A stretch of DNA of 47,443 nucleotides from PVC group bacterium. Its GTDB lineage: Bacteria; Auribacterota; Erginobacteria; Erginobacterales; PUNC01. This document shows, one piece after another, positions 4,527 to 21,916 of this stretch. Position numbers and translations under genes: made by a program. Position 1 is the first letter of the stretch. The number at the start of each line of letters is the position of its first letter. Below the pieces are notes generated by a model. That model saw nothing but the letters and a program-made list of their open reading frames with translations. It did no database searches and was not told the origin of the DNA. Location of the stretch: contig PUNC01000242.1 in assembly GCA_003551625.1 (NCBI GenBank), positions 1-47,443 on the forward strand, given 5' to 3'.

Positions 4527-5198
4527 ATGAACAAGACCGTCGCCGTCTTCACCGTTATGGCTGTTATCGCCGTTTTGGCCGGGGCGTTCTTTCTGCCCGC
4601 GGAAGCTAACGCGCAGACCCGGAGTATGCGCTGCTGGCGCTGCCAGAGAACCTTTGAAGCCGATACCGCCGTCAGGCGGGGGAACTGCCCGCACTGCGGG
4701 GCCCAGTACGCCCTCCCCCAGCCGACCCCGACTCCCCGGGTCGTCGATCCGGACGCGCCCCCTTCGCCGACCCCGGACGCCGTGCCTTTCGAGGACGCGG
4801 AACGCTATATGGGCCAGACCATCACCATCGAGGGAAGGATCGTCGGGACCTTCCTCTCCCGCCGGAGCGGGCATCTTTATCTCAACTATCACGACGATTT
4901 CCGACGCCACGTCTCGATCAAGATTCCGGCCCCCAACCTGGCCCGGTTCCCCGCCAGCCCGGAAAGATACTATGACGGAAAGACCGTCCGGGCCACCGGC
5001 CGGATCGTGCGGGAAGGGCAGTATCTCCGCCAGGAGGTAACCGACCCCGAAAACCTGGAGGTCATCGAACCGGGGGCGGGGAGCTTCAATTTCCAGGCCC
5101 CGCCGCCGCGCTCGGCGGCCCGGCGACCGACCCGGCGGACGGCCTCCCTTTCGGAAAGCTACGGCGACCGCGATAACGGAAACGGCGATTCGGACTGA
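4527..5198 (+). CDS. Secreted zinc-ribbon plus OB-fold-like protein (copy 1)
   Basis: A 223-residue protein with a signal peptide at 1-29 (hydrophobic core, cleavage after ANA), then a zinc-ribbon motif, CWRC at about 36-39 and CPHC at about 54-57. A Pro/Thr-rich linker follows, then a beta-rich domain at about 87-170 (GQTITIEGRIVGTF, VSIKIPA, VRATGRIVREGQYLRQEV) resembling a nucleic-acid-binding-type OB fold, and a basic disordered tail. A GGGAGG ribosome site precedes the ATG. I do not recognise a named family. Exported zinc ribbons are uncommon, and the signal peptide argues for a periplasmic or surface role. The next gene is a paralogue. Confidence 0.7.
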   Translation: MNKTVAVFTVMAVIAVLAGAFFLPAEANAQTRSMRCWRCQRTFEADTAVRRGNCPHCGAQYALPQPTPTPRVVDPDAPPSPTPDAVPFEDAERYMGQTITIEGRIVGTFLSRRSGHLYLNYHDDFRRHVSIKIPAPNLARFPASPERYYDGKTVRATGRIVREGQYLRQEVTDPENLEVIEPGAGSFNFQAPPPRSAARRPTRRTASLSESYGDRDNGNGDSD

Positions 5199-5295
5199 GC
5201 CGTTCCGGAAAACCTCCCGTTGTGAGGGCGGGAGGCGCTTGAAAAAGCGGCCAACGCCACCCGCCGAACCCGGTCTTTCAAAGGAGGGGTATGGC

Positions 5296-6009
5296 GTGGG
5301 ACTATCCTCCCGGACCATCGGGCTGACAGTTGTCCTCTTTTCCGCGATCCTCACCGCCGGTTCGATCGGCGCTGAGGCGGCGGAAGAGGCGGCGGTTCTC
5401 CGTTGCTGGCGCTGCGAAATCTCCTTCCAAGTCCCGGACGGTACCGGGAGCGGAAACTGTCCGTCCTGCGACGCCCCGTTCGTCTCCGCCCCGCCGCCCG
5501 GAGAACCTCTGGCCGCCGCGGCGACGCGAGGGACTCCGCCGCCGTATGGAGTCGCCAACCTGATCCCCTTCCAGGAAGCGGAGAACCACGTGGACCGAAC
5601 GGTGACCATCGAGGCCAACATCATCGGCACCTTCCTTTCCCCTCAAAGCGGCGATCTCTTTTTGAATTATCACCGTGACTTCCGGCGCTACGTCTCGGTT
5701 ATGATCCCCGCCCAATACTTAAGCCTCTTCCCACCCAACCCGGACTCCTACTACCGCTATACCGCCGTCCGGGCCACCGGCCGGGTTCACCGGACGGGGG
5801 AATACCTGCGCCAGGTGGTGACCAGACCCGCTGATCTTGAAGTCATTGGAGAACTTGATCCGACCCTGGCTCCGATGGATGCCCCGGTCTGGGAACCCCT
5901 GGAGTTGGAACGAGAGCTTTTTGTCGACCGGTTGGATCTGGACGAAACGAGCAGCGTAGAAGAATTCAGAAACAGCCTGGAGATGCAAGAGTTCTTGCGA
6001 AGAGAATAA
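5296..6009 (+). CDS. Secreted zinc-ribbon plus OB-fold-like protein (copy 2)
   Basis: A paralogue of the preceding gene: signal peptide, CWRC/CPSC zinc ribbon, proline-rich linker, then the same OB-like domain (TVTIEANIIGTFLS, LFLNYHRDFRRYVSV, RATGRVHRTGEYLRQVV). The C-terminus differs, ending in an acidic segment of about 60 residues. I place the start at GTG 5296 because an ideal AAGGAGG lies 8 bases before it. The open frame extends to a TTG at 5239, but that has poor spacing and would bury the signal peptide behind a charged extension. The stop codon lies inside a repeated 15-17-base motif (6005-6021). The start choice is moderately sure. Confidence 0.7.
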   Translation: MGLSSRTIGLTVVLFSAILTAGSIGAEAAEEAAVLRCWRCEISFQVPDGTGSGNCPSCDAPFVSAPPPGEPLAAAATRGTPPPYGVANLIPFQEAENHVDRTVTIEANIIGTFLSPQSGDLFLNYHRDFRRYVSVMIPAQYLSLFPPNPDSYYRYTAVRATGRVHRTGEYLRQVVTRPADLEVIGELDPTLAPMDAPVWEPLELERELFVDRLDLDETSSVEEFRNSLEMQEFLRRE

Positions 6010-9798: not shown

Positions 9799-10371
9799 TC
9801 AGTCCGGACGGCCGGTATTTTCAATCCTCATTATCTTGTTGACCCGGGGCCAGTGGCGCCCTCCGGCGAACGGGGTGGCAAGCCAGACTTCCACGATCTC
9901 CCGGGCGGTATCCGGGGAGAGCATTTTGCCGCCCAGGGTCAGCAGGTTGGCGTTATTGTGCTCGCGGCTGTTGCGGGCGGTCGCCCGGTCGTAACACATC
10001 GCCGCCCGCACCCCCCGAACCTTGTTGGCGGCCATACAGGAGCCGATTCCGGCTCCATCCACCATAATCCCGAGGTCGCATTTCCCGGAAGCGACCGCGC
10101 GGGCGACCAGGAGTGCGAAATCGGGGTAGTCAACGGGATCTTCACCGTGAGTCCCCAGGTCGCAAACCTTTCGGCCGGAGTCCTGAAGGTATCGAGCCAG
10201 GGTTTCCTTAAGCCGGAAGCCGCCGTGGTCGGCGCCCAGCGCTATTCTTCCGGCGGGAACGGCCTTCCGCGTGACGGCGGTCAGGGAATGCTCGCTGGAT
10301 GAGCCGGAGCGAAAACCGAACTCGCCGGCCAGCACCTCTTCCACGATTCTATTTACCCGATCCTGACTCAT
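9799..10371 (-). CDS. rpiB: RpiB/LacA-type sugar-phosphate isomerase with N-terminal targeting-like extension
   Basis: A ribose-5-phosphate isomerase B family protein. The core shows [16 protein letters not shown], the phosphate loop [19 protein letters not shown] and [11 protein letters not shown]. The catalytic cysteine of E. coli RpiB (CGTGIG context) is replaced by aspartate (VDGAGIG), so the exact substrate is uncertain. I choose ATG 10371 over 10425 because a promoter (10416-10444) would place transcription initiation between the two and because AAGGG precedes it. The protein then starts [16 protein letters not shown], an amphipathic helix, followed by a Ser/Gly-rich linker of about 25 residues before the enzyme. 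That is the arrangement of a microcompartment encapsulation peptide. deoC follows 38 bases downstream and carries a similar tail. Confidence 0.85.
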
Positions 10372-10415
10372 TCCTTCCCTTAACCTTAAAGACCGGTCCT
10401 GATTCCTGTTGGCGA

Positions 10416-10444
10416 CTTCTATCATAACCTCCGGCCGCGGTCAA
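10416..10444 (-). promoter_or_regulatory. Promoter for the rpiB-deoC genes
   Basis: On the minus strand TTGACC (10439-10444), a 17-base spacer and TAGAAG (10416-10421) fit a sigma-70 promoter. Initiation would fall near 10408, upstream of the ATG at 10371 but past the alternative ATG at 10425. Confidence 0.5.
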
Positions 10445-10493
10445 GCCTGAAAAAGCCTGGCCGGGGCCGAAGCGACCCGGATATAATAGCTCC

Positions 10494-10520
10494 AACCCGG
10501 ATTAATAATCCGGGTTAAAG
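10494..10520. promoter_or_regulatory. Near-perfect palindrome ahead of the sigma-factor gene (repeat motif copy 2)
   Basis: Arms AACCCGGATTA (10494-10504) and TAATCCGGGTT (10506-10516) are perfect inverted copies around one base. A TATAAT box lies just upstream at 10482-10487, though without a good -35, and the ATG of the sigma gene follows at 10523. The palindrome would sit at or just after the transcription start, a typical operator or leader-hairpin position. Its right arm is the 17-base motif also found at 6005. Confidence 0.5.
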
Positions 10521-10522
10521 TT

Positions 10523-11170
10523 ATGCCGAAGATACCGAAAAAAACCAGGGCGCGGGATTTGAACGAAACCCCGGCCGACAGGTCTAATCCCATTGAAGAC
10601 AGCGAAAGGGAATTGGTGCGGGCGGCCCGAAACGGCGACGCCGACGCTTTCGGGAAACTGGTGGTCAAATACCAGCGCCGGATCTACGGACTGGTCAGAA
10701 GAATGACCGGAGACCACGGCCTGGCCGACGACCTGGCCCAGGAAGCTTTTATAAAGGCCTGGCGCAATATCCGGAAATACCGCGGCCGGTCGGCCTTCTA
10801 CACCTGGCTCTACCGGATCGCGATGAATACGGCTCTGACCCGGTTAAAACAGCAAAAAAGGCTGCCCTACTCGGGGGTCGAATCGCTGGAGAATATCCCC
10901 CACCCCCGCCCGGTTCCTTTTCTGGGCAGGACCCCGGAAGGCGGGGCGGACCGGCTGCGGAGGAAGGAACTTGACCGGGCCCTGGAAAAAGCCCTCCAGG
11001 GGCTTTCCTCCCGGCACCGCGCGGTGGTGGAGATGCACGTGATTGACGAAATCTCCCACCGGGAGATCGCCCGGGCCCTTAAGGTATCGGAAGGCACCGT
11101 AAGGTCCCGTCTGCATTACGCCCGCAAACAGTTGAAGAAGAGACTCAATCGTTATCTGCCGGAAGGATGA
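10523..11170 (+). CDS. ECF-family RNA polymerase sigma factor (RpoE-like)
   Basis: A 215-residue sigma factor. Region 2 spans about residues 40-115 (GDADAFGKLVVKYQRRIY, GLADDLAQEAFIKAWRNIRKY, FYTWLYRIAMNTALTRLK). Region 4 spans about 148-208 (LQGLSSRHRAVVEMHVIDEISHREIA split around the helix-turn-helix, then SEGTVRSRLHYARKQLKKRL). There is no region 3, as expected for an ECF factor. It overlaps the next gene by four bases (ATGA), so it is translationally coupled to the probable anti-sigma factor. An envelope-stress role is plausible because an HtrA homologue and the Bat genes follow on the same strand. The ribosome site is weak and the start is less certain than the identity. Confidence 0.92.
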   Translation: MPKIPKKTRARDLNETPADRSNPIEDSERELVRAARNGDADAFGKLVVKYQRRIYGLVRRMTGDHGLADDLAQEAFIKAWRNIRKYRGRSAFYTWLYRIAMNTALTRLKQQKRLPYSGVESLENIPHPRPVPFLGRTPEGGADRLRRKELDRALEKALQGLSSRHRAVVEMHVIDEISHREIARALKVSEGTVRSRLHYARKQLKKRLNRYLPEG

Positions 11171-11736
11171 TCGGGGCGATGATCGGAAAAAGAAAACGGC
11201 CCAATCAAAACCGGCAAGAGCGGGAAGACCGGGCGCTGGACCGGCTGCTGGCGGCGCTGGCCCGGCGGCCGGATCTTGAACCGCCTTCCCGTGAATACTG
11301 GGACAATTTTTGGCCCCGGCTGCGGCCGAAGCTTCTCTCCTCCGACCGCGCCGCCGCCCGGTTCGGTTTACCCCCCCTCCGCCGGGCGTGGCGGCCGGTT
11401 CCGGCCGCGGCCGGGGTCTTGCTGCTGATCGCCGCCGCGATCGTCTTCTACCATCAACCATTCGGTTCCGAATCCCCGCTCGATCCGGATCCGCCGCGGG
11501 CGGCCGTCCGGCAACCCGGGAGCGGCGAAGTCTCCTACGTCATTATCCGGGCGGGAGATCCCTCCGAGCCGGCCCGGGAAGAACCCCGCCCGGGGGGCGA
11601 TACTCTGGCCGGGACGGAGAGGTGGACGGAAGGCGATTACTTCATAGTTCCGGCCCGCCCGGACCGGGAACTACAAAGGTCGCGGCACGTTCTGACCCCC
11701 GCCGGCGCCGGCGCCGGTCGGCTGGCCGCCTGGTGA
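11167..11736 (+). CDS. Probable membrane anti-sigma factor
   Basis: A 189-residue protein with a charged cytoplasmic half (about 1-72) containing YWDNFWPRLRPKL, a pattern common in anti-sigma domains. One transmembrane helix follows at about 77-94 (VPAAAGVLLLIAAAIVFY), then a low-complexity Pro/Gly/Arg periplasmic part. The ATG overlaps the sigma stop as ATGA. No HxxxCxxC zinc motif is present, so it is not a ZAS-type anti-sigma. The identification rests mainly on topology and coupling to the sigma gene. Confidence 0.7.
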   Translation: MIGAMIGKRKRPNQNRQEREDRALDRLLAALARRPDLEPPSREYWDNFWPRLRPKLLSSDRAAARFGLPPLRRAWRPVPAAAGVLLLIAAAIVFYHQPFGSESPLDPDPPRAAVRQPGSGEVSYVIIRAGDPSEPAREEPRPGGDTLAGTERWTEGDYFIVPARPDRELQRSRHVLTPAGAGAGRLAAW

Positions 11737-11838
11737 CGATGACGACGGCGAAAGCGGCAATCCGGGGCGCGGCCGGTCCTGACGAGCGGTTTCCCGATTA
11801 ATCTTCGACCAGGGCAAAAACAACCGAGGTAAAAAGAG

Positions 11839-12987
11839 ATGAAGAAGATTGCTGCCGGTGGAACGGCGGCCGCGGCCGCCTTCACTTTATTCCTTCTCCT
11901 CCCGGCGCGGGGGTCCGTCCTCCGGCAGGTCGGGGAGGAGACCGCCCGCCTGGCGGAGAAAGCCCGGCCGGCCACCGTCAACATCCTTACCCGATCCCGC
12001 CCGTCTCCCACTGCCGAAACTCCGCCCGCTCTCCCCTTCTCTCCCGACAAGAGAAGCAGCGGCAGCGGATTCTTCGTCAGCCCCGACGGCCTGATCCTGA
12101 CCGTGGAGACCGTGGTGGCCGGCGCCGAAGAGATCACGGCGCTGACTTTCGAGGGCGAAGCGCTTCCGGCGCGGGTGGTCGGCCGGGAAGGTCACTTCAA
12201 TCTCGCCCTTCTGAAGGTGGCGGGCGAGGATCATCCTTACCTTGAGCTGGGAGACTCGAGTCTTCTTCAGGAGGGTCACCTGGTGGTGGCCGTCGGCAAC
12301 CCTTTCGGCCTTTTCGCGAGCCCGACCCTGGGCATCGTCAGCGGCCGGGGCCGCTCCGGCCTGGGGACCGCTCCCTACGAAGACCTGATCCAGATCACGG
12401 CGCCGATCAATCCCGGAGACGCGGGAGGGCCGGTCCTGAACTGGAAGGGGGAGGCGGTGGGACTGATATCCGCGGCCCTCTATCCCCCGAGCAGACTCTA
12501 CCCGGAACGGTTTCCCGGCGGATTCCGGCGACGCGGAACCCTCCACCCGTTCGATCCTTTCCCGGCCGACTCGTTCGGCGTCCCGGTCCCGGCCCAGGCG
12601 GTCGGTTTCGCCATCACCAGCGAGCTGGCCGCCGAACTTCTCGGCCGGTTCCGGGAAGAGGAGGTTCGCCCCTGGGGATGGCTGGGGGTGAGGATTGAAA
12701 GCCGCCCGCCGCGGCCGGGGGAGGAGCGGGCGGTGGTGATCCGGGAAGTTCTGCCCCGGTCGCCGGCCAAAGCCGCCGGCCTCCGGGAGGGCGACCTGAT
12801 CGGAGCGGTGGACTCGGAGACGGTCCGGCGGCCGCTCGACCTGCAGCGGGCGATTCTCTTCTCCGCCCCCGGGCGCCGGGTCGAGCTGGAGATCATCCGC
12901 GACGGGGAGCGGGTAATACTCCCGGCGGTCATCGGGCCCCCGCCCGACCTAAAGGCGGGCGACGACGGACCCGAGGCCGGAGAATAG
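11839..12987 (+). CDS. HtrA/DegP-like protein with all three catalytic residues replaced, plus PDZ domain
   Basis: Signal sequence at 1-25, a trypsin-like HtrA domain at about 35-215 and one PDZ domain at about 275-370 (GWLGVRIESRPP, VLPRSPAKAAGLREGDLIGAV). The fold signatures are clear (GSGFFVSPDGLILT, VVGREGHFNLALLK, VAVGNPFGL, NPGDAGGPVLN). The TNNHVV histidine is Thr91, the TDLAVLK aspartate is Asn121 and the GNSGGP serine is Ala195. It therefore cannot hydrolyse peptides by the known mechanism and is best described as a pseudoprotease, perhaps a chaperone or peptide sensor. The AGGTAAAAAGAG ribosome region precedes the ATG. It lies between the sigma/anti-sigma pair and moxR. Confidence 0.88.
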   Translation: MKKIAAGGTAAAAAFTLFLLLPARGSVLRQVGEETARLAEKARPATVNILTRSRPSPTAETPPALPFSPDKRSSGSGFFVSPDGLILTVETVVAGAEEITALTFEGEALPARVVGREGHFNLALLKVAGEDHPYLELGDSSLLQEGHLVVAVGNPFGLFASPTLGIVSGRGRSGLGTAPYEDLIQITAPINPGDAGGPVLNWKGEAVGLISAALYPPSRLYPERFPGGFRRRGTLHPFDPFPADSFGVPVPAQAVGFAITSELAAELLGRFREEEVRPWGWLGVRIESRPPRPGEERAVVIREVLPRSPAKAAGLREGDLIGAVDSETVRRPLDLQRAILFSAPGRRVELEIIRDGERVILPAVIGPPPDLKAGDDGPEAGE

Positions 12988-13023
12988 CGGGAGAATACTG
13001 AATCCTGAACACCGGGAGGGAAG

Positions 13024-14013
<990 letters not shown>

Positions 14014-14307
14014 TCGCGGCCTCATAAAGGCTGTAATCAGTTATCGGTAATCAGTAATCAGTGAAAGGCCCAGACCCACTGTAAGGCAAGTAATCAGTAA
14101 GCAGTTAGCAGTTAGCAGTTAGCAGTTAGCAGTGTGCAGTAATTCGTTGGTAGTTACCTAATAGTCTAACAGTCTAAACCCCTACAGCCTTATTTCCGTC
14201 TCACACGAAGGCACTAAGGCACAAAGATTTATTCCTAGATTTTCCTAATAGACTAAAAGACTAACAGGCTAAACAGTTTGTTTTAACCACAGAGATCACG
14301 AAGAAAT

Positions 14308-14566
14308 GACGAAATCCGAAACCCGAATCCCGAATGCCTGCCCGCCATAGCCTGGAGGGCGACGGCGGGACGAAATCCGAAACTTGAATCCCGAATGCCT
14401 GCCCGCCATAGCCTGGAGGGCGACGGCGGGACGAAATCCGAAACCCGAATCCCGAATGCCTGCCCGCCATAGCCTGGAGGGCGACGGCGGGACGAAATCC
14501 GAAACCCGAATCCCGAATGCCTGCCCGCCATAGCCTGGAGGGCGACGGCGGGACGTAATCCGAAAT
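14308..14566. repeat. 61-base tandem repeat, four copies plus a partial
   Basis: Units start at 14308, 14369, 14430 and 14491; a degenerate partial starts at 14552. Each unit is a 28-base core (ACGAAATCCGAAACCC then GAATCCCGAATG) followed by a 33-base palindromic module whose ends are CCCGCC and GGCGGG. Units are nearly identical, with single-base differences, so the array is recent. It is not a CRISPR because nothing unique lies between repeats. Confidence 0.9.
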
Positions 14567-14589
14567 CTAGTTCGTTGGTAAAAGAGCGA

Positions 14590-14610
14590 ATTTTTTCCGA
14601 AGGAAAAAAT
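14590..14610 (+). promoter_or_regulatory. Start-codon-proximal hairpin, copy 1
   Basis: Arms ATTTTTTCC (14590-14598) and GGAAAAAAT (14602-14610) flank a 3-base loop and end one base before the DUF58 ATG. The ribosome-binding purines AAGGA lie in the loop and second arm, so the hairpin could mask them. The same structure precedes trpC at 43351-43371. Confidence 0.6.
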
Positions 14611-14611
14611 A

Positions 14612-15490
14612 ATGATTCCCCGGGAACTGATCTCCAAGATCCGCCGGATCCAGATCTACACCAACCGGATGGTAAGCGACGTCTTCGCCGGGAGCTACCT
14701 GAGCGTCTTCAAGGGCCGGGGGATGGAGTTCGACGAGGTGCGGGAGTACCAGCCCGGCGACGAGGTCCGCGACATCGACTGGAACGTGACCGCCCGGATG
14801 GGCCGCCCTTACGTCAAGAAGTTCGTCGAGGAGCGGGAGTTGACGGTAATGCTGCTGGTCGACGGCAGCGGCTCGCAGTTCTTCGGCACCCGGGAGCGCT
14901 TCAAGGAGGAGCTGGCCGCCGAGCTGTGCGCGGTGCTGGCCTTCTCCGCCATCAACAACCAGGACAAGGTGGGGATGATAATCTTCACCGATCGAATCGA
15001 AAAGTTCGTCCCGCCCGCCAAGGGCACCCAGCACGTTCTTCGGGTGATCCGGGACGTCCTCCACCATAAAAGCCGGGGAACCGGAACCGACATCTCGCTG
15101 GCCCTGGGCTACCTCAACCGGGTGACCCCGCGACGCACGGTGGCCTTTTTGATCTCCGATTTCCTCGCCTCCGGCTATGAAAAGGCCCTGAAGATCGCCG
15201 CCCGGCGGCACGACCTGATCCCGGTCCGGCTTTTCGATCCCCGGGAGGGAAAACTGGAGGCGGCCGGCCTTATCCGGCTGGCCGATCCCGAGACCGGCCG
15301 CGCCGTCGTGATCGACAGCGGCGACCCCCGCGTGCGCGAGGAATTTTCCCGGCGGGCGCGGCGGCGGGAAGAAGAGATCCGGCGGCTCTTCGCCGCGGCC
15401 GGCGTGGACGCCATTCATATCTCCAACGGCTCCTCCTACGTTCCCGCCCTGCTTCGTTTCTTCCGCCAACGGCGGAGAAGGTTCCAGTGA
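14612..15490 (+). CDS. DUF58 protein with VWA-like fold, Bat-operon component
   Basis: A 292-residue DUF58 protein. The family signature FKGRGMEFDEVREYQPGDEV (about 36-55) and RDIDWNVTARMGRP (about 56-69) is intact. A MIDAS-type DGSGS follows at about 86-90. DUF58 proteins are regular partners of MoxR ATPases and precede BatA/BatB. The ribosome site lies inside a hairpin. Its stop overlaps the start of the next gene. Confidence 0.9.
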   Translation: MIPRELISKIRRIQIYTNRMVSDVFAGSYLSVFKGRGMEFDEVREYQPGDEVRDIDWNVTARMGRPYVKKFVEERELTVMLLVDGSGSQFFGTRERFKEELAAELCAVLAFSAINNQDKVGMIIFTDRIEKFVPPAKGTQHVLRVIRDVLHHKSRGTGTDISLALGYLNRVTPRRTVAFLISDFLASGYEKALKIAARRHDLIPVRLFDPREGKLEAAGLIRLADPETGRAVVIDSGDPRVREEFSRRARRREEEIRRLFAAAGVDAIHISNGSSYVPALLRFFRQRRRRFQ

Positions 15491-16434
15491 TGAAAACGGG
15501 GATCGCGATTCTGACGCTGCTGCTGGCGGCCGGCGCCGCCCGCGGCGGCCCGGGCGGAGGGGGCGAAATAACCGTATCGGCGCGGCTGGACCGCGAGCGG
15601 GCCCGCATCGGCGACCCGGTCCGGTTGACCCTGGAGGCGGCCGCCCCCGCCGGCTGGGAGATATCCTTCGGAGACCTGGCGGAAACGCTCGGCCCGGACT
15701 GGGAGGTCGCAGACGGGGGCGTTGAAACCGAAGCCGAGAACGGCCTCCGGGTGATCCGCAGGTGGTATTCGCTGCTGGCCTTCGATTCCGGCGAGCTCGA
15801 GCTGGCGCCGCCGCCGGTCCGCGCCCGGCTTCCGGACAGGAGCGAGATTGAAGAGGCGCCGCCGGTCCTGACCCTTCGGGTGGAGAGCCTTCTCGAGCCC
15901 GGCGCCGAAGACATCCGCGACATCAAGCCTCCCCTGGCGGTCGGGGCTTCGGGGGCCGCCGCCGTGGCGGCGACGGCGGGGGCGTTGATTATCGCCGCCG
16001 CGGTCTTCTACGCGCTCCGGAGAAGAAAGGCGCCGGAGCCGGCGACGGCGCCGCCCCGGCCCGCCGATCAGATCGCCCTGGAGGCGCTCGACGAGATCCG
16101 GCGGAAAAACCTTCCCGCCCGGGGACTGGTCAAGGAGTATTACCTCGAAATCTCCAACGTGGCCCGGCGCTACCTCGAAAACCGTTTCGGACTGCGGGCC
16201 CCGGAGCGGACTACCGAAGAGTTCCTCCAGGAACTGGCCGGCGATTACTCCTCCTTCTCCCGGCCCCACCAGGAGCTGCTGGCCGACTTCCTTACCCACT
16301 GCGACCTGGTCAAGTTTGCCCGCTACGGCCCCAGCGCCGATGAGATCGAAAACGTTTATCGCTCCGCCCGGCGGCTGGTGGTGGAGACAGCGGCGACGGC
16401 GGAAGAAGCCGACCGGCTTGGAAAAAAGGATTAA
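15490..16434 (+). CDS. BatD-like/DUF4381-like exported protein of the Bat operon
   Basis: A protein of about 314 residues with a signal peptide (1-20), an immunoglobulin-like domain at about 25-135 (ITVSARLDRERARIGDPVRL) resembling the BatD N-terminus, one transmembrane helix at about 155-178 and a helical cytoplasmic domain with YYLEISNVARRYLENRFG. That cytoplasmic segment is typical of DUF4381/BatD C-termini. I take ATG 15490, which overlaps the DUF58 stop as TGATG; a GTG three bases earlier is possible. It sits between DUF58 and batA, so it probably belongs to the same membrane complex. Confidence 0.75.
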   Translation: MKTGIAILTLLLAAGAARGGPGGGGEITVSARLDRERARIGDPVRLTLEAAAPAGWEISFGDLAETLGPDWEVADGGVETEAENGLRVIRRWYSLLAFDSGELELAPPPVRARLPDRSEIEEAPPVLTLRVESLLEPGAEDIRDIKPPLAVGASGAAAVAATAGALIIAAAVFYALRRRKAPEPATAPPRPADQIALEALDEIRRKNLPARGLVKEYYLEISNVARRYLENRFGLRAPERTTEEFLQELAGDYSSFSRPHQELLADFLTHCDLVKFARYGPSADEIENVYRSARRLVVETAATAEEADRLGKKD

Positions 16435-16612: not shown

Positions 16613-17620
16613 GTGACGGCTTTTGAGTTTCACAATCCCCGGTTTCTCTTCCTGCTCCTGCTGCTTCCGCTCTACTGGCTGGCCTACTGGAGGCAGCAGC
16701 GTCTTGGCGCGGTCCGCTTCAGCTCGCTCGACGGGCTGGAGGGGCTGCCGGTCTCCCTCCCGGTCCGCCTGCGCCACCTTACCGTCGTCGCCGGTTCCCT
16801 GGCCCTGGCCGCGCTGACCGCCGCCCTGGCCCGCCCCCGGCTGGGCGTGGGGGAGGAGCTGCTGGAGACCGAGGGGATAAATATTTCGCTGGCCGTCGAT
16901 CTTTCCACCAGTATGCTGGCCGAGGACTTCACCGTCGGTGACCGGAGAATGAACCGGCTGGAGGTCCTCAAACCGGTCATCCGCGACTTCATCGGCCGGC
17001 GGCGGGGCGACCGGATCGGCCTGGTGGCCTTCGCCGGCAGGGCCTACCCCTACGGCCCGCTCACCACCGATCACGAAGTTCTCTCCCGGATGGTGGACCG
17101 GCTCGAGATCGGGATGCTGGAGGACGGAACCGCCATCGGAATGGCGATCGTCTCGTCGCTCAATCAGCTCCGCGCCGCCGAAGGCGGCGAGAAGGTCATC
17201 CTGCTGCTTACCGACGGAATCAATAATACCGGCAAGATCGATCCCGTCACCGCCGCGGAGATGGCCCGGGGGCTGGGGGTCAGGATCTACGCGGTCGGCG
17301 CCGGCTCCCGCGATCCCGTTCCCTATCCCGCCGGACGGGACGCCCGCGGCAGAACGGTCTACCGGACGGTCTCGCTGCCGATCGACGACGATGAACTCCA
17401 GCGCCTGGCCGACCTCACCGGCGGAGCCTACTTCCGCGCCGAGGATACCGCGGGGCTGGAGGAGATCTACCGTCAAATCGACCAGCTGGAGGCGGCCCCG
17501 ATTCGGGAGAGAAGATTCACCGAATACCGGGAACTCTTCCCCGCCTTCATCTTCGCCGGCCTGGCGCTGCTGCTGACAAAGATCGTTCTCAGGGAAACCC
17601 GCTTGGGGAGTCTGCCGTGA
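16613..17620 (+). CDS. batA: BatA-type VWA-domain membrane protein
   Basis: A 335-residue protein with N-terminal helices at about 8-24 and 58-78, a von Willebrand A domain at about 90-290 with the metal-site DLSTS (about 99-103) and LLTDGINNTG, and a C-terminal helix near 310-328. This is the BatA/YfbK-like layout, with the VWA domain exposed to the periplasm. The start is GTG with no clear ribosome site. Its stop overlaps the next start (GTGA), so batA and batB are translationally coupled. Confidence 0.88.
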   Translation: MTAFEFHNPRFLFLLLLLPLYWLAYWRQQRLGAVRFSSLDGLEGLPVSLPVRLRHLTVVAGSLALAALTAALARPRLGVGEELLETEGINISLAVDLSTSMLAEDFTVGDRRMNRLEVLKPVIRDFIGRRRGDRIGLVAFAGRAYPYGPLTTDHEVLSRMVDRLEIGMLEDGTAIGMAIVSSLNQLRAAEGGEKVILLLTDGINNTGKIDPVTAAEMARGLGVRIYAVGAGSRDPVPYPAGRDARGRTVYRTVSLPIDDDELQRLADLTGGAYFRAEDTAGLEEIYRQIDQLEAAPIRERRFTEYRELFPAFIFAGLALLLTKIVLRETRLGSLP

Positions 17621-19338
17621 GATTTGAAGCGACGCATTTGGCCTGGGTCCTGCTGATCGTCCCCGCCCTGGCGATCTTCTTTCGCTTCGCCGCGGCGGCC
17701 CGGCGGAGAAGATCCTCCCGGTTCGCCGACCCCGATCTCTACCGGCGCCTTGCCGGGGGTGTCAGCGAGCGGCGGCGGCGGAAGCGACCGCCGATGGTCC
17801 TGGCGGCCTGCCTCCTGCTGGGGATCGCCCTCCTCGACCCGCAGTGGGGATACCGCCTGGAGGAGGTCTCCCGGGAGGGTATCGACCTGATGGTCGCCGT
17901 CGACACCTCCCGCAGTATGCTGGCCGACGACGTCAGCCCCAACCGCCTGGAACGCGCGAAACGGTCGGTCCGCCAGCTGGTCACCCTCCTGCGGGGCGAC
18001 CGGGTCGGTCTAATCCCCTTCGCGGGGACGGCCCACGTTTACTGCCCGCTGACCCTGGACTACCGTGTTTTTCTCCTCTTCTTGAACGATCTCTCGACCG
18101 AGACCATACCCCGGGGGGGAACCGACATCGCCTCCGCGATCGAGAAGGCCGCCGAAGCCTTCGCCCATTCCGGGCGCCGGCGGCGCGCCCTGGTCATCTT
18201 CACCGACGGCGAACACCTGGAAGGCGACCTTGACGCCGCCGTCGAAAGGGCCCGGGAAGAGGAGATCCGGATCTTCGCCATCGGCTTCGGTTCGCCGGAA
18301 GGCAAACCCCTCCGGATCGAGCGCCCGGACGGATCGGTATCCTACCTGCGGGACGCCGAGGGGAACGTGGTCGTCACCCGTCTCGACGAGTCCACGCTGG
18401 AAAGAATCGCCGTCGCCACCGGCGGCGCCTACCACCGCGCCACCCCCGGCGGGCGGGAGCTGGAACTGATCTACCGGGAGCGGATCGCCCGGATGGAGAG
18501 GGACCTTCTCGACGAAGCTCTACGCCGGGTCCGCCTCCGCCGCTTCCAGTGGCCGCTGGGACTGGGTTTGGCTCTGCTCTTCCTGGAAGGAGCGATGGGG
18601 GACGGCAAGGGAAAGCCCCTCTCTTTCCTCCGGACGGGCCGGAGACGGAAAGAGGCCGTCGCCCTGATCCCGCTGGTTTCGCTGGCGCTGCTCAACCTGG
18701 GAATGGCTAACCCCGCCGCCCGAAGCCTCCGGGAAGGCAATCGGCTCTTCCAGGAAAAGCGCTATGAGGAGGCCCGGGAAAGCTACCGGCGGGCCCGGGC
18801 GGACCGTCCGGACGCGCCCGAGTCGGTCTTCAATCTGGGCAACGTCTACTACCGGCTCGACGATTACGGGGGGGCGGAAAGCCTCTTCCGGCGGGCCGCC
18901 GAGCAACTCGACCCGGAACGGAGCGGCCGGGCCTGGTATAACCTGGGCAACTCCCTCTTTCGGGCCGGGGAGCTCCGGCCGGCCCTGGACGCCTACCGGG
19001 AAGCGATCCGGCGCGACCCGGAAGATCCCGACGCCAAGTTTAATTACGAACTGGTGAAGCGGCTGCTGGATCGGGAAGAGGAACCCCGCCCTGAGGATGA
19101 AGAAGAAGAGGAGAGGGAGCCGGAGGCGCCGGAGGAGGAACCTCCTCCCGAAGGCGAAGAGGACCCCGACGAGGAGGCTCCCGCCGATCCTGAAACCATC
19201 CCGGAAGAGATGGAGGAAGAACTGAGCCCGGAAGACATTGAAAGACTGCTGGACATCCTTCTGGGCGAGGAAGAAGATATGAAACGGCCGCTGCCGGCGG
19301 AGTTTTACGACGAGGAACCCCCGTTGAGGGACTGGTAA
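17617..19338 (+). CDS. batB: BatB VWA protein fused to a BatC-like TPR domain
   Basis: A 573-residue fusion. The BatB part (about 1-335) has two N-terminal helices, a VWA domain with DTSRS at about 90-94 and IFTDGEH, and a closing helix. The BatC part (about 370-490) has three TPR units (SLREGNRLFQEKRYEEARE, SVFNLGNVYYRLDDYGGAES, AWYNLGNSLFRAGELRPAL), followed by a highly acidic Glu/Pro tail to about 550. In Bacteroides and spirochaete Bat operons these are usually separate genes. The GTG start overlaps the batA stop. Residues about 345-360 form another hydrophobic segment, which would put the TPRs on the periplasmic side. Confidence 0.87.
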   Translation: MRFEATHLAWVLLIVPALAIFFRFAAAARRRRSSRFADPDLYRRLAGGVSERRRRKRPPMVLAACLLLGIALLDPQWGYRLEEVSREGIDLMVAVDTSRSMLADDVSPNRLERAKRSVRQLVTLLRGDRVGLIPFAGTAHVYCPLTLDYRVFLLFLNDLSTETIPRGGTDIASAIEKAAEAFAHSGRRRRALVIFTDGEHLEGDLDAAVERAREEEIRIFAIGFGSPEGKPLRIERPDGSVSYLRDAEGNVVVTRLDESTLERIAVATGGAYHRATPGGRELELIYRERIARMERDLLDEALRRVRLRRFQWPLGLGLALLFLEGAMGDGKGKPLSFLRTGRRRKEAVALIPLVSLALLNLGMANPAARSLREGNRLFQEKRYEEARESYRRARADRPDAPESVFNLGNVYYRLDDYGGAESLFRRAAEQLDPERSGRAWYNLGNSLFRAGELRPALDAYREAIRRDPEDPDAKFNYELVKRLLDREEEPRPEDEEEEEREPEAPEEEPPPEGEEDPDEEAPADPETIPEEMEEELSPEDIERLLDILLGEEEDMKRPLPAEFYDEEPPLRDW

Positions 19339-19376: not shown

Positions 19377-21179
19377 ATGCGAATACTCGTCTTAAAATTC
19401 ACCGTCCTTTTCATTATCACGCTGACGGGAACGCTCCCGCTCTCTTCCGCCCGCGGGGATGAGATCTCATTCACCGCCTCGGTCGATCGCCGGAGCATAA
19501 CTCCCGACGACTCCCTGATCTACACCCTGACCATCGAGGGCGGCGGGGAGGCCGTCCCGGAGCTGCCGAGGCTTGAAGGGTTCCATCTTCTGGAAACCTC
19601 GGTCGGCACCTCGATCGAGATCATCAACAACCAGCTCCGTCAAACCCGGAATTTCCGATACACCTTCCGGCCCCGGTCCCTTCTCCAACCCGGCGATTAT
19701 CGGATTCCCCCGGCGATCCTTCGCCACGGGGGGAGGACCTACGCTTCCAATCCGGTGACGGTGCGAGTGGTCGAGCGGGGGACCGCCCCGGCGCCGGAAG
19801 CCGAACCGCCCCCTCTCTTTATGGAGGCCTCCCTCGACCGGGAGGAAGCTTTCGTCAACGAGCAGGTGACCCTGGCGGTAAGGATCTTTTTCCGCCGGCC
19901 CGGCCTGGCCAATCTCAACTACTCCCCTCCCCCGGCGACGGGTATGATCGCCGAAAGCCTGGGTCCGGAACGAAGATACCAGCGGGTCATTGACGGCGCG
20001 CGTTACGAGGTGATCGAGATCCGGACGGCGATCTTCCCGATCGGCCCCGGGGAGCTTACCATCGGCCCGGCCGAACTGCGGGGAACCGTCCCCACCGAGC
20101 GCAGGGAACCCCGCCGGTCGCCCTTCGACGATTTCTTCTCCGACGATTTCTTCGGTTTCCGGCGGGATCGCGAACCGTTTCACATCGAGTCCCGGCCCGT
20201 ATCGCTCCGGGTGAAACCCTGGCCCCGGGAAGAGCGGCCGGCGGAGTTCGATGGGGCCGTGGGAAGCTTCGACCTGTCGGTGGGGGCGAACCCCCTAACC
20301 CTCGACGCGGGCGAGGCGGTAACCCTGACCATACGGGTCGAGGGCGAAGGCAACCTCGCCTTCGTCCGGCCCCCCCGGGTCGATATCGGCTCCGAGTTCC
20401 GGGTCTATCCCCCCGAGGAAGAGGTCCGGCCGGATATCCGGGAGGACCGGATCGGCGGGGAGAAGATTTTCCGCCAGGTCCTGATCCCCCAGCAGGCCGG
20501 GGAGCTGGAGATACCGGAGGTCCGCTTCGGCTTTCTCGACCCGGAGAGCGGCGACTACCGTCTCCTCCGGAGCCGCCCGGTCCGGATCACGGCGCGGCCG
20601 GTGGAAACCGAACCGGTCCGACTCGTGGAGGCCCCGGACCCGGGGATCGTCCGGCCCGGGATACCGGTTCAGGAGGCCGATATCCTCTACATCAAGGAGG
20701 GACCGGAACGCTGGAGAAGGCGGCGGGACCGGCCCCCGGCCGGGCGTTTCTGGCCTTACCTCCTTCCCTGGCCCGTAATCCTGGTCCTGCGCAAGCTTCA
20801 GGACCGGCGGGAGAGAATCCGCTCCGACCTCACCTACGCCCGGCGGCGGGCCGCCACCCGCGTGGTGAGGGAGCGGTTTCGAAAAGCGCGGAAGCTGGCC
20901 CGGGCCGGCGACCGGGAAGGGTTCCACGGCGAACTCCATCGGGCGCTGCTGCGGTATCTGAGCGACAAGTCCGGGGTCCCGGTGGGAGCGGTCGGACCGG
21001 AGACGCTCGGCGAACGGCTCGCGGGAGCGGGAGAAGGACTGAAGGAAGAGCTGGAAGAGGTCCTCCGGGCGGCCGAACACGCCCGTTACGCGCCCGGCGG
21101 CTCGGGAGCGGGAGATATGCGGACTCTGCTGGAAAAGGTGGAGCGGCTGATCGGCCGGATGGAGAAGGTGAAATGGTGA
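19377..21179 (+). CDS. batD: BatD protein
   Basis: A 600-residue protein with a signal peptide at about 1-27, then repeated beta-sandwich domains. The first opens ISFTASVDRRSITPDDSLIY and the second SLDREEAFVNEQVTL, both the oxygen-tolerance BatD pattern. An FDDFFSDDFFGF segment near 245-256 is typical of BatD. A transmembrane helix lies near 460-470 (FWPYLLPWPVILVL). A basic cytoplasmic helical domain follows, with RALLRYLSDKSGVP. BatD is thought to scaffold the BatA/BatB complex in the inner membrane. It lies 38 bases after batB and overlaps batE by seven bases. Confidence 0.9.
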   Translation: MRILVLKFTVLFIITLTGTLPLSSARGDEISFTASVDRRSITPDDSLIYTLTIEGGGEAVPELPRLEGFHLLETSVGTSIEIINNQLRQTRNFRYTFRPRSLLQPGDYRIPPAILRHGGRTYASNPVTVRVVERGTAPAPEAEPPPLFMEASLDREEAFVNEQVTLAVRIFFRRPGLANLNYSPPPATGMIAESLGPERRYQRVIDGARYEVIEIRTAIFPIGPGELTIGPAELRGTVPTERREPRRSPFDDFFSDDFFGFRRDREPFHIESRPVSLRVKPWPREERPAEFDGAVGSFDLSVGANPLTLDAGEAVTLTIRVEGEGNLAFVRPPRVDIGSEFRVYPPEEEVRPDIREDRIGGEKIFRQVLIPQQAGELEIPEVRFGFLDPESGDYRLLRSRPVRITARPVETEPVRLVEAPDPGIVRPGIPVQEADILYIKEGPERWRRRRDRPPAGRFWPYLLPWPVILVLRKLQDRRERIRSDLTYARRRAATRVVRERFRKARKLARAGDREGFHGELHRALLRYLSDKSGVPVGAVGPETLGERLAGAGEGLKEELEEVLRAAEHARYAPGGSGAGDMRTLLEKVERLIGRMEKVKW

Positions 21180-21916
21180 GACGGATGATAATATTCGCCG
21201 GGTTCTTGCTGGCCGCGGCCGCCCGGGGAGGAACGCCGGCGGCCGAATTCTCCCGCGCCAATGATTATTACTCCCGGGGGGAATACTCCCGCGCGGCCGG
21301 TATCTACCGCGACCTGGCCGAACGGGGCTGGGAGAGTCCGGAGCTTTTCTACAACCTGGGCAACGCCCACTTCAAGCTTGACGAACTGGGATACGCGATC
21401 GCCAACTACCGCCGCGCCTGGAAGCTCTCCCCCCGGGATCCCGAGATCAATTTCAACCTTTCCCACGCCCGGAGCTTTCTCCTCGACGATCTGCCGGCCC
21501 GGCCGACGGCCCCGGGGGAGCGGATTCAATATTACCTTGCCGGCCTGCTGCCGCCGGCGGCCTGGGAGACCGTCGCCGCCGCCGTTTACTTCCTTGTCGT
21601 CGGGGCGGCGGCGGCGGCGGCGCTCAGAATCCAAAGAGGGGCGGCGAAGGCGGCGATGAAATACCTGCTTCCGGTGCTGGCCCTGAGCCTGCTGACCACG
21701 GGAGCGGTCCATCATTACCACGCCCGGGAACGGGGGGTGGTGGTGGTCCCGGAACTCCCGGTCCGCTACGGCCCCGGGCTGGATGACCTGACGGCTTTCG
21801 TTCTTCACGAGGGAACCGAGGCGCGGGTGCTCCGCCGCCGGGAAGGATGGAAACAGATCCTGCTGCCGGATGGGAAGACCGGGTGGGCCCCTTCCGGCTC
21901 CCTGGAGATCATTTAA
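21173..21916 (+). CDS. batE: BatE protein: TPR plus SH3-like domain
   Basis: A 247-residue protein with an N-terminal signal or anchor (1-22), TPRs at about 24-105 (ANDYYSRGEYSRAAGIYRDL, FYNLGNAHFKLDELGYAIAN), two transmembrane helices at about 125-145 and 160-180, and a bacterial SH3-like domain at about 185-247 (PVRYGPGLDDLTAFVLHEGTE split, WKQILLPDGKTGWAPSGSLE). TPR-TM-SH3 is the standard BatE architecture. The ATG overlaps the end of batD and has GGAGAAGG just upstream. It is the last gene of the operon. Confidence 0.88.
   Translation: MVRRMIIFAGFLLAAAARGGTPAAEFSRANDYYSRGEYSRAAGIYRDLAERGWESPELFYNLGNAHFKLDELGYAIANYRRAWKLSPRDPEINFNLSHARSFLLDDLPARPTAPGERIQYYLAGLLPPAAWETVAAAVYFLVVGAAAAAALRIQRGAAKAAMKYLLPVLALSLLTTGAVHHYHARERGVVVVPELPVRYGPGLDDLTAFVLHEGTEARVLRRREGWKQILLPDGKTGWAPSGSLEII

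Follow-up and report, generated by a model that had tools for sequence, protein, structure and literature searches.

The window, meaning the whole 47,443-nucleotide stretch of DNA analysed here (PUNC01000242.1), is contig C139 of a 2.80-Mb MAG that is 93% complete. Genes for an ECF sigma factor, a membrane anti-sigma factor and an HtrA-like protein are followed in it by a MoxR gene, a DUF58 gene and the Bat genes (Table 1), which is the order described in the original prediction, made from this sequence alone, of an HtrA pseudoprotease placed after sigma and anti-sigma genes and before the Bat operon. A search for an ECF promoter 5′ of the sigma gene found no GAAC-type motif shared by the upstream regions, and no sigma-70-type site was found in 10300–14700. 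A near-perfect palindrome, AACCCGGATTA/TAATCCGGGTT, is located at 10490–10520, just 5′ of the sigma start codon, and is possibly an operator or a 5′ hairpin. Within the Bat operon, between moxR and the DUF58 gene, a 61-bp tandem repeat occurs in approximately 4.2 near-identical copies (14247–14612); partial copies of it are present elsewhere in the genome. Further upstream, 4527–5198 and 5239–6009 encode two neighbouring secreted proteins that resemble each other, contain CxxC pairs and seem to have arisen by tandem duplication.

Table 1. Features of the sigma/anti-sigma/HtrA-like locus and of the genes that follow it (window coordinates).
Feature	Coordinates	Strand	Basis
ECF sigma factor, 215 aa	10523..11170	+	Sigma70_r2, 78 bits; r4_2, 54.8 bits
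Membrane anti-sigma factor, 189 aa, without the zinc-finger Cys/His	11167..11736	+	Position; alignment with zf-HC2 orthologues; model
Anti-sigma tail motif, copy 1 (SYVI)	11533..11544	+	Motif; short strand 124–128 in low-confidence model
Anti-sigma tail motif, copy 2 (DYFI)	11635..11646	+	Motif; short strand 158–162 in low-confidence model
Anti-sigma C-terminus LAAW, possible PDZ ligand	11722..11733	+	Sequence; putative function
HtrA-like pseudoprotease, 382 aa	11839..12987	+	ORF; Trypsin_2 and PDZ_2; AF2 pLDDT 83.8; Foldseek (AlgW/DegQ/DegP/MucD)
Predicted signal peptide or N-terminal hydrophobic helix, about residues 1–26	11839..11916	+	Read from sequence
Trypsin-like domain without triad, about residues 70–213	12046..12477	+	Trypsin_2
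Thr91 (ACC), catalytic His position	12109..12111	+	Alignment with HtrAs
Asn121 (AAT), catalytic Asp position	12199..12201	+	Alignment with HtrAs
Ala195 (GCG), catalytic Ser position, in NPGDAGGP	12421..12423	+	Alignment with HtrAs; Ser in 10/10 orthologues
PDZ domain, residues 282–358	12682..12912	+	PDZ_2, 49.8 bits
MoxR-type AAA+ ATPase	13024..14013	+	AAA_3, 215 bits
DUF58/VWA protein	14612..15490	+	Pfam
Bat-operon protein, no Pfam match, conserved at locus	15487..16434	+	Locus comparison
BatA-like VWA protein	16613..17620	+	VWA and BatA matches
VWA and TPR protein (BatB/BatC-like)	17617..19338	+	Domain search
BatD-like protein	19377..21179	+	BatD, 115 bits
TPR and SH3 protein (BatE-like)	21173..21916	+	Domain search

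The HtrA-like protein of the window retains the HtrA trypsin-PDZ fold and lacks the His-Asp-Ser triad: alignment, Pfam, AlphaFold and Foldseek all bear out the prediction that Thr91, Asn121 and Ala195 stand at the three catalytic positions while the fold and the PDZ domain are intact. The Trypsin_2 match (94.6 bits) is above the Pfam cut-off, and the AlphaFold model has a mean pLDDT of 83.8 and a pTM of 0.80, the poorly modelled parts being the linker at approximately 216–251, a short segment at 63–68 and the C-terminus. The closest solved structures found by Foldseek are AlgW (top), DegQ, DegP, MucD and DegS; against TIGR02037 (Do proteases), the protein scores 197.4 bits, which is far below the curated score of 416.2 bits. 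A helix is modelled at residues 7–20, and several orthologues carry clear AxA-type signal sequences.

In 11 Candidatus Auribacterota genomes from four families, an HtrA-like orthologue is positioned directly 3′ of genes for an ECF sigma factor and a membrane anti-sigma factor, and none of the 11 proteins at this locus has a complete triad. At the His-Asp-Ser positions, the window protein has T-N-A, G001 has S-N-S, G002, G003 and G004 have N-G-S, G016, G023 and G029 have D-N-S, G019 has Y-N-S, G026 has H-N-S and G009 has E-D-S. The His and/or the Asp is lost in every orthologue, and the serine is kept in all ten orthologues of the window protein and lost in the window alone; loss of all three residues, as originally described, is therefore confined to the window species, and a broken triad in a preserved fold is the property of the whole clade. 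Since the Ser-to-Ala replacement was found only in the window MAG, an assembly or sequencing error may have affected codon 12421–12423. In the tree, the 11 pseudoproteases cluster together (93/91 relative to the other labelled groups; 88/90 in the tree as drawn), separate both from the HtrAs at the recA locus and from an intact-triad HtrA that is encoded directly after the pseudoprotease in family f9 (G019, G026 and G029). A relative with an intact triad at the locus, named beforehand as contrary to the prediction, thus occurs in f9, but only as a second tandem gene belonging to another clade. These replacements fit a history in which catalytic constraint was lifted early and the triad residues then drifted, the serine being the last to go and disappearing in the window alone. 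Selection for a non-proteolytic role, as the original prediction proposed, is well supported by the existence of one conserved clade in one gene neighbourhood across four families without a single complete triad, and the search for homologues that it suggested yielded orthologues whose triads are all broken.

The clade's NPGDSG motif was also searched for across 84,980 species, an approach that finds only relatives bearing that motif, and 80 loci were recovered; outside Auribacterota, the readable HtrA-type loci keep the His and Asp except for one Rhodospirillales sequence, and the scan of species genomes detected no further clade of triad-broken HtrAs of this kind. The Rhodospirillales protein (L093:6351-8138) has an Arg at the His position (R-D-S) and is likely another pseudoprotease. 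Separately, an f9 family of HtrA-like proteins (L025, L026 and L027; G033, G035 and G011) keeps the His and Asp while its catalytic Ser is replaced by Asn (GNNGGP), and is apparently a second, independent pseudoprotease.

In 9 of the 11 genomes, moxR is located 3′ of the HtrA-like gene, either directly or after a gene for a BatD-like membrane protein (L036:8293-9222 and equivalents), which intervenes in most relatives and is absent from this position in the window. The G004 contig ends just past the BatD-like gene, and the HtrA-like gene of G026 is divided between two contigs that overlap by ten residues. In G003, the contig carrying the sigma, anti-sigma and HtrA-like genes ends inside the last of these, and the BatD-like and MoxR genes follow an unrelated dehydrogenase gene on a different contig, so that the trio seems not to be joined to the Bat operon. 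The G003 contig end (L038:8603-8745, CAKZYZ010000189.1) reads as an Illumina adapter with poly-A-like filler, and the pseudo-HtrA gene that it cuts off thereby gains a false DRKSVV C-terminus. Other Auribacterota families have MoxR/Bat genes without an adjoining sigma, anti-sigma or HtrA gene; most Bat operons of the phylum lack the pseudo-HtrA, which occurs only alongside the sigma and anti-sigma genes.

Active-looking HtrAs and a site-2-type protease are encoded elsewhere in the window MAG. Intact-triad HtrAs, for which the original prediction had recommended a search, were found between recA and alaS (C98), on C230 and, in a more distant form, on C141, and an RseP-like M50 protease is encoded on C7. 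At the sigma locus itself, no active HtrA follows the pseudoprotease in the window, G001, G002, G004 or f7; the active HtrAs of f1 and f7 are at the recA-alaS locus and belong to clades other than that of the pseudoprotease. Two HtrA genes away from the sigma locus, L041:5658-6887 (G003) and L042:5353-6336 (G004), contain internal stop codons and may be either real broken genes or MAG errors.

In the AlphaFold model, the anti-sigma factor of the window has a pair of helices at its N-terminus and a hydrophobic one at residues 79–95. The zf-HC2 domain was matched in orthologous anti-sigmas, and the helices and the hydrophobic segment are retained in the window copy; the zinc-finger Cys/His residues are lost in the window and in G002 and G004 (L037:2683-3126; L039:5604-6038) and kept in G001, G003, f7 and f9. 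We assume that the window anti-sigma still inhibits the sigma factor without the zinc finger. Its tail is predicted, with low confidence, to be disordered except for two short strands, both of which coincide with copies of a [YF][VIM][LI] strand motif. This motif is present in all 11 anti-sigmas of the locus, 17–22 residues before the C-terminus (in the window, 33), and the pattern used detects another copy, farther from the end, in f1, f2 and two of the three f9 genomes. A total of 19 matches was obtained versus 1.1 expected from shuffled tails (the largest of 2000 shuffles gave 5), and the motif occurs 1.73 times per locus anti-sigma versus 0.18 times per protein in 34 further zinc-finger proteins from these genomes. 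A C-terminal aromatic residue is present in 5 of the 11 locus anti-sigmas and in none of the 34 other proteins (p = 0.0004, with p-values here indicative only because the motif and C-terminus patterns were set after inspecting the sequences and the 11 anti-sigmas are related). The anti-sigmas end in FEV, LEV, WAV and LEV in f2, AAW in the window, IYY, IYQ and IFQ in f7, and RMY, QPY and GAY in f9; position 0 or −2 is hydrophobic or aromatic in every case, and the PDZ domains of AlgW and DegS accept large hydrophobic residues at these two positions (PMC8545111). The C-termini of the locus anti-sigmas often look like PDZ ligands; the last residues vary by family (V, W, Y or Q), and some ends are unlike a classic PDZ ligand.

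Family f4 (G006 and G021) has a different arrangement, in which the sigma and anti-sigma genes are followed by moxR with no HtrA gene in between, and the anti-sigmas (L236:6193-7014 and L246:572-1441, both on the minus strand) carry a C-terminal PDZ domain of their own. This domain is slightly under the Pfam cut-offs; PDZ domains of known structure from site-2 proteases and DegP/DegQ match it with E-values of approximately 1e-5 to 1e-4, and in hhalign its profile is similar to that of PDZ2 in the f9 pseudo-HtrAs (E 5e-6, probability 86%). The presence of a PDZ domain in cis in f4, and of a PDZ-bearing dead protease in trans elsewhere, provides an argument of the gene-fusion type that the PDZ domain acts with the anti-sigma.

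The conserved tail motif, the PDZ-ligand-like ends and the f4 anti-sigma with its own PDZ domain independently support the originally suggested link between the pseudo-HtrA and the anti-sigma, from which we infer that the former may bind, sense and control the latter. Our leading reading, to which we give a probability of about 45%, is that the pseudo-HtrA is an HtrA-derived pseudoprotease serving as a dedicated periplasmic partner of the anti-sigma, docking on its tail and gating its cleavage by active proteases. The disordered periplasmic tail would make two contacts: its short [YF][VIM][LI] (“YILP”-like) beta-strand motif would lie in what was once the substrate groove, and its last residues would occupy the PDZ pocket. 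A ligand bound at two points in this way would be degraded by an active HtrA but held uncut by the dead enzyme. In the bound state, the pseudo-HtrA would protect the tail as RseB protects RseA. Unfolded envelope proteins, through their C-termini, or other ligands would compete for the PDZ domain so that the tail is let go, and an active HtrA together with the RseP-like site-2 protease would then degrade the anti-sigma and so free the sigma factor. The switch could operate in either direction, with the pseudo-HtrA as shield or as activator. The intact HtrAs and M50 protease in the window genome and the separation of the G003 trio from the MoxR/Bat genes favour this partner model. Its generalization to an envelope-stress switch at the level of the phylum, in which a dead HtrA would take the place of an active site-1 protease as the dedicated sensor through groove and PDZ capture and non-proteolytic gating, with f4 using the anti-sigma's own PDZ domain instead, is put forward more tentatively.

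HtrAs assemble as trimers or larger oligomers. The main alternative to this partnership is a regulatory subunit: the dead protein would be a component or an activator of hetero-oligomers with an active HtrA, and only that active partner would reach the anti-sigma. The tandem intact-triad HtrA of f9 speaks for such a subunit, and MamO, which promotes proteolysis by MamE without an active site of its own, is a precedent (PMC4794232). However, the lack of a following active HtrA in the window, G001, G002, G004 and f7, where the active copies are elsewhere and of other clades, together with the failure of this model alone to explain the tail motif and the PDZ-bearing f4 anti-sigma, makes it a doubtful explanation.

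Chaperone activity is known for HtrA proteins, and the pseudo-HtrA could instead be an envelope chaperone or adaptor of the MoxR/Bat machinery, a mere output gene sharing the sigma-controlled operon. The pseudo-HtrA gene and moxR are only 36 bp apart on the same strand in the window, and a BatD-like gene comes next after the former in most orthologous loci; nevertheless, the absence of the pseudo-HtrA from most Auribacterota Bat operons, its restriction to loci with sigma and anti-sigma genes and the separate G003 trio render this role unlikely. Residual catalysis may persist in the ten orthologues with Ser, one of which (G026) also has His, and cutting by an unusual active site in all copies except that of the window would account for the retention of the NPGDSG serine in 10 of 11 proteins. 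Six different residues (T, S, N, D, Y and E) replace the His, however, and no His is conserved across the alignment, so there is no conserved general base, and the window protein is devoid of any serine nucleophile at this site; cryptic catalysis is therefore quite improbable.

Recent decay of the gene in the window lineage might be suspected from its branch, the longest in the clade (1.44), and from the other losses nearby, namely Ser195, the anti-sigma zinc finger and the BatD-like gene. Against this, the stop-rich frame that the original prediction regarded as fatal to it is not seen: the ORF is uninterrupted over 382 aa, its GC content by codon position (0.74/0.53/0.81) is of a coding type, as is that of moxR (0.64/0.37/0.81) and as opposed to the flat value of approximately 0.50 in nearby intergenic DNA, 28 of the 31 columns invariant among the ten orthologues are kept (Ser195 is among the three lost), and the fold is modelled with confidence, all of which makes decay very improbable. 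Metal binding, a known fate of an HtrA pseudoprotease in MamO (PMC4794232), can hardly apply here, since the clade alignment contains no conserved His, including the MamO-type surface pair, and the proteins have no transporter domain.

Several known systems share parts of this arrangement. In the algU-mucABCD and mycobacterial sigE-rseA-htrA loci, an HtrA gene is likewise found beside genes for an ECF sigma factor and an anti-sigma factor, but those HtrAs are described as proteases and no MoxR/Bat operon follows them, whereas here the triad is broken and MoxR/Bat genes come next. DegS and AlgW of the RseA and MucA systems are also periplasmic proteins composed of a trypsin domain and a single PDZ domain that reads hydrophobic C-termini, AlgW being the top fold match of the window protein, and they act on the anti-sigma; the window protein, by contrast, lacks the triad, which argues against its cutting the anti-sigma as a site-1 protease. 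The proposed role is shared with RseB/MucB, which shield the anti-sigma by binding its periplasmic part and blocking site-1 cleavage, but the pseudo-HtrA fold is unrelated to theirs and has no lipid-binding domain. MamO and degenerate MamE copies are, as here, HtrA folds without a triad that arose beside active HtrAs and were kept in a non-catalytic capacity (PMC4794232); the present proteins differ from them in locus and phylum, in having neither a conserved metal-binding His nor a TauE domain, and in being tied to an ECF sigma/anti-sigma pair. HtrA pseudoproteases and sigma/anti-sigma/HtrA loci are thus both already known. For a conserved clade that unites the two and comes with an anti-sigma tail resembling a held substrate, no report was found in the literature consulted on HtrA pseudoproteases, anti-sigma pseudoproteases and Auribacterota, where the useful papers concerned only MamO, AlgW/DegS and taxonomy.

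Control of sigma factors by HtrA proteins has so far been understood as a proteolytic cascade, and conserved, catalytically broken HtrAs at a sigma locus would demonstrate that the HtrA fold can sense ligands independently of cutting them. The clade offers a natural series of stages of triad loss (H-N-S, D-N-S, S-N-S and T-N-A) in which this can be tested, and it would connect the MoxR/Bat machinery, which is still poorly understood, with an envelope-stress circuit in a phylum without cultured members.
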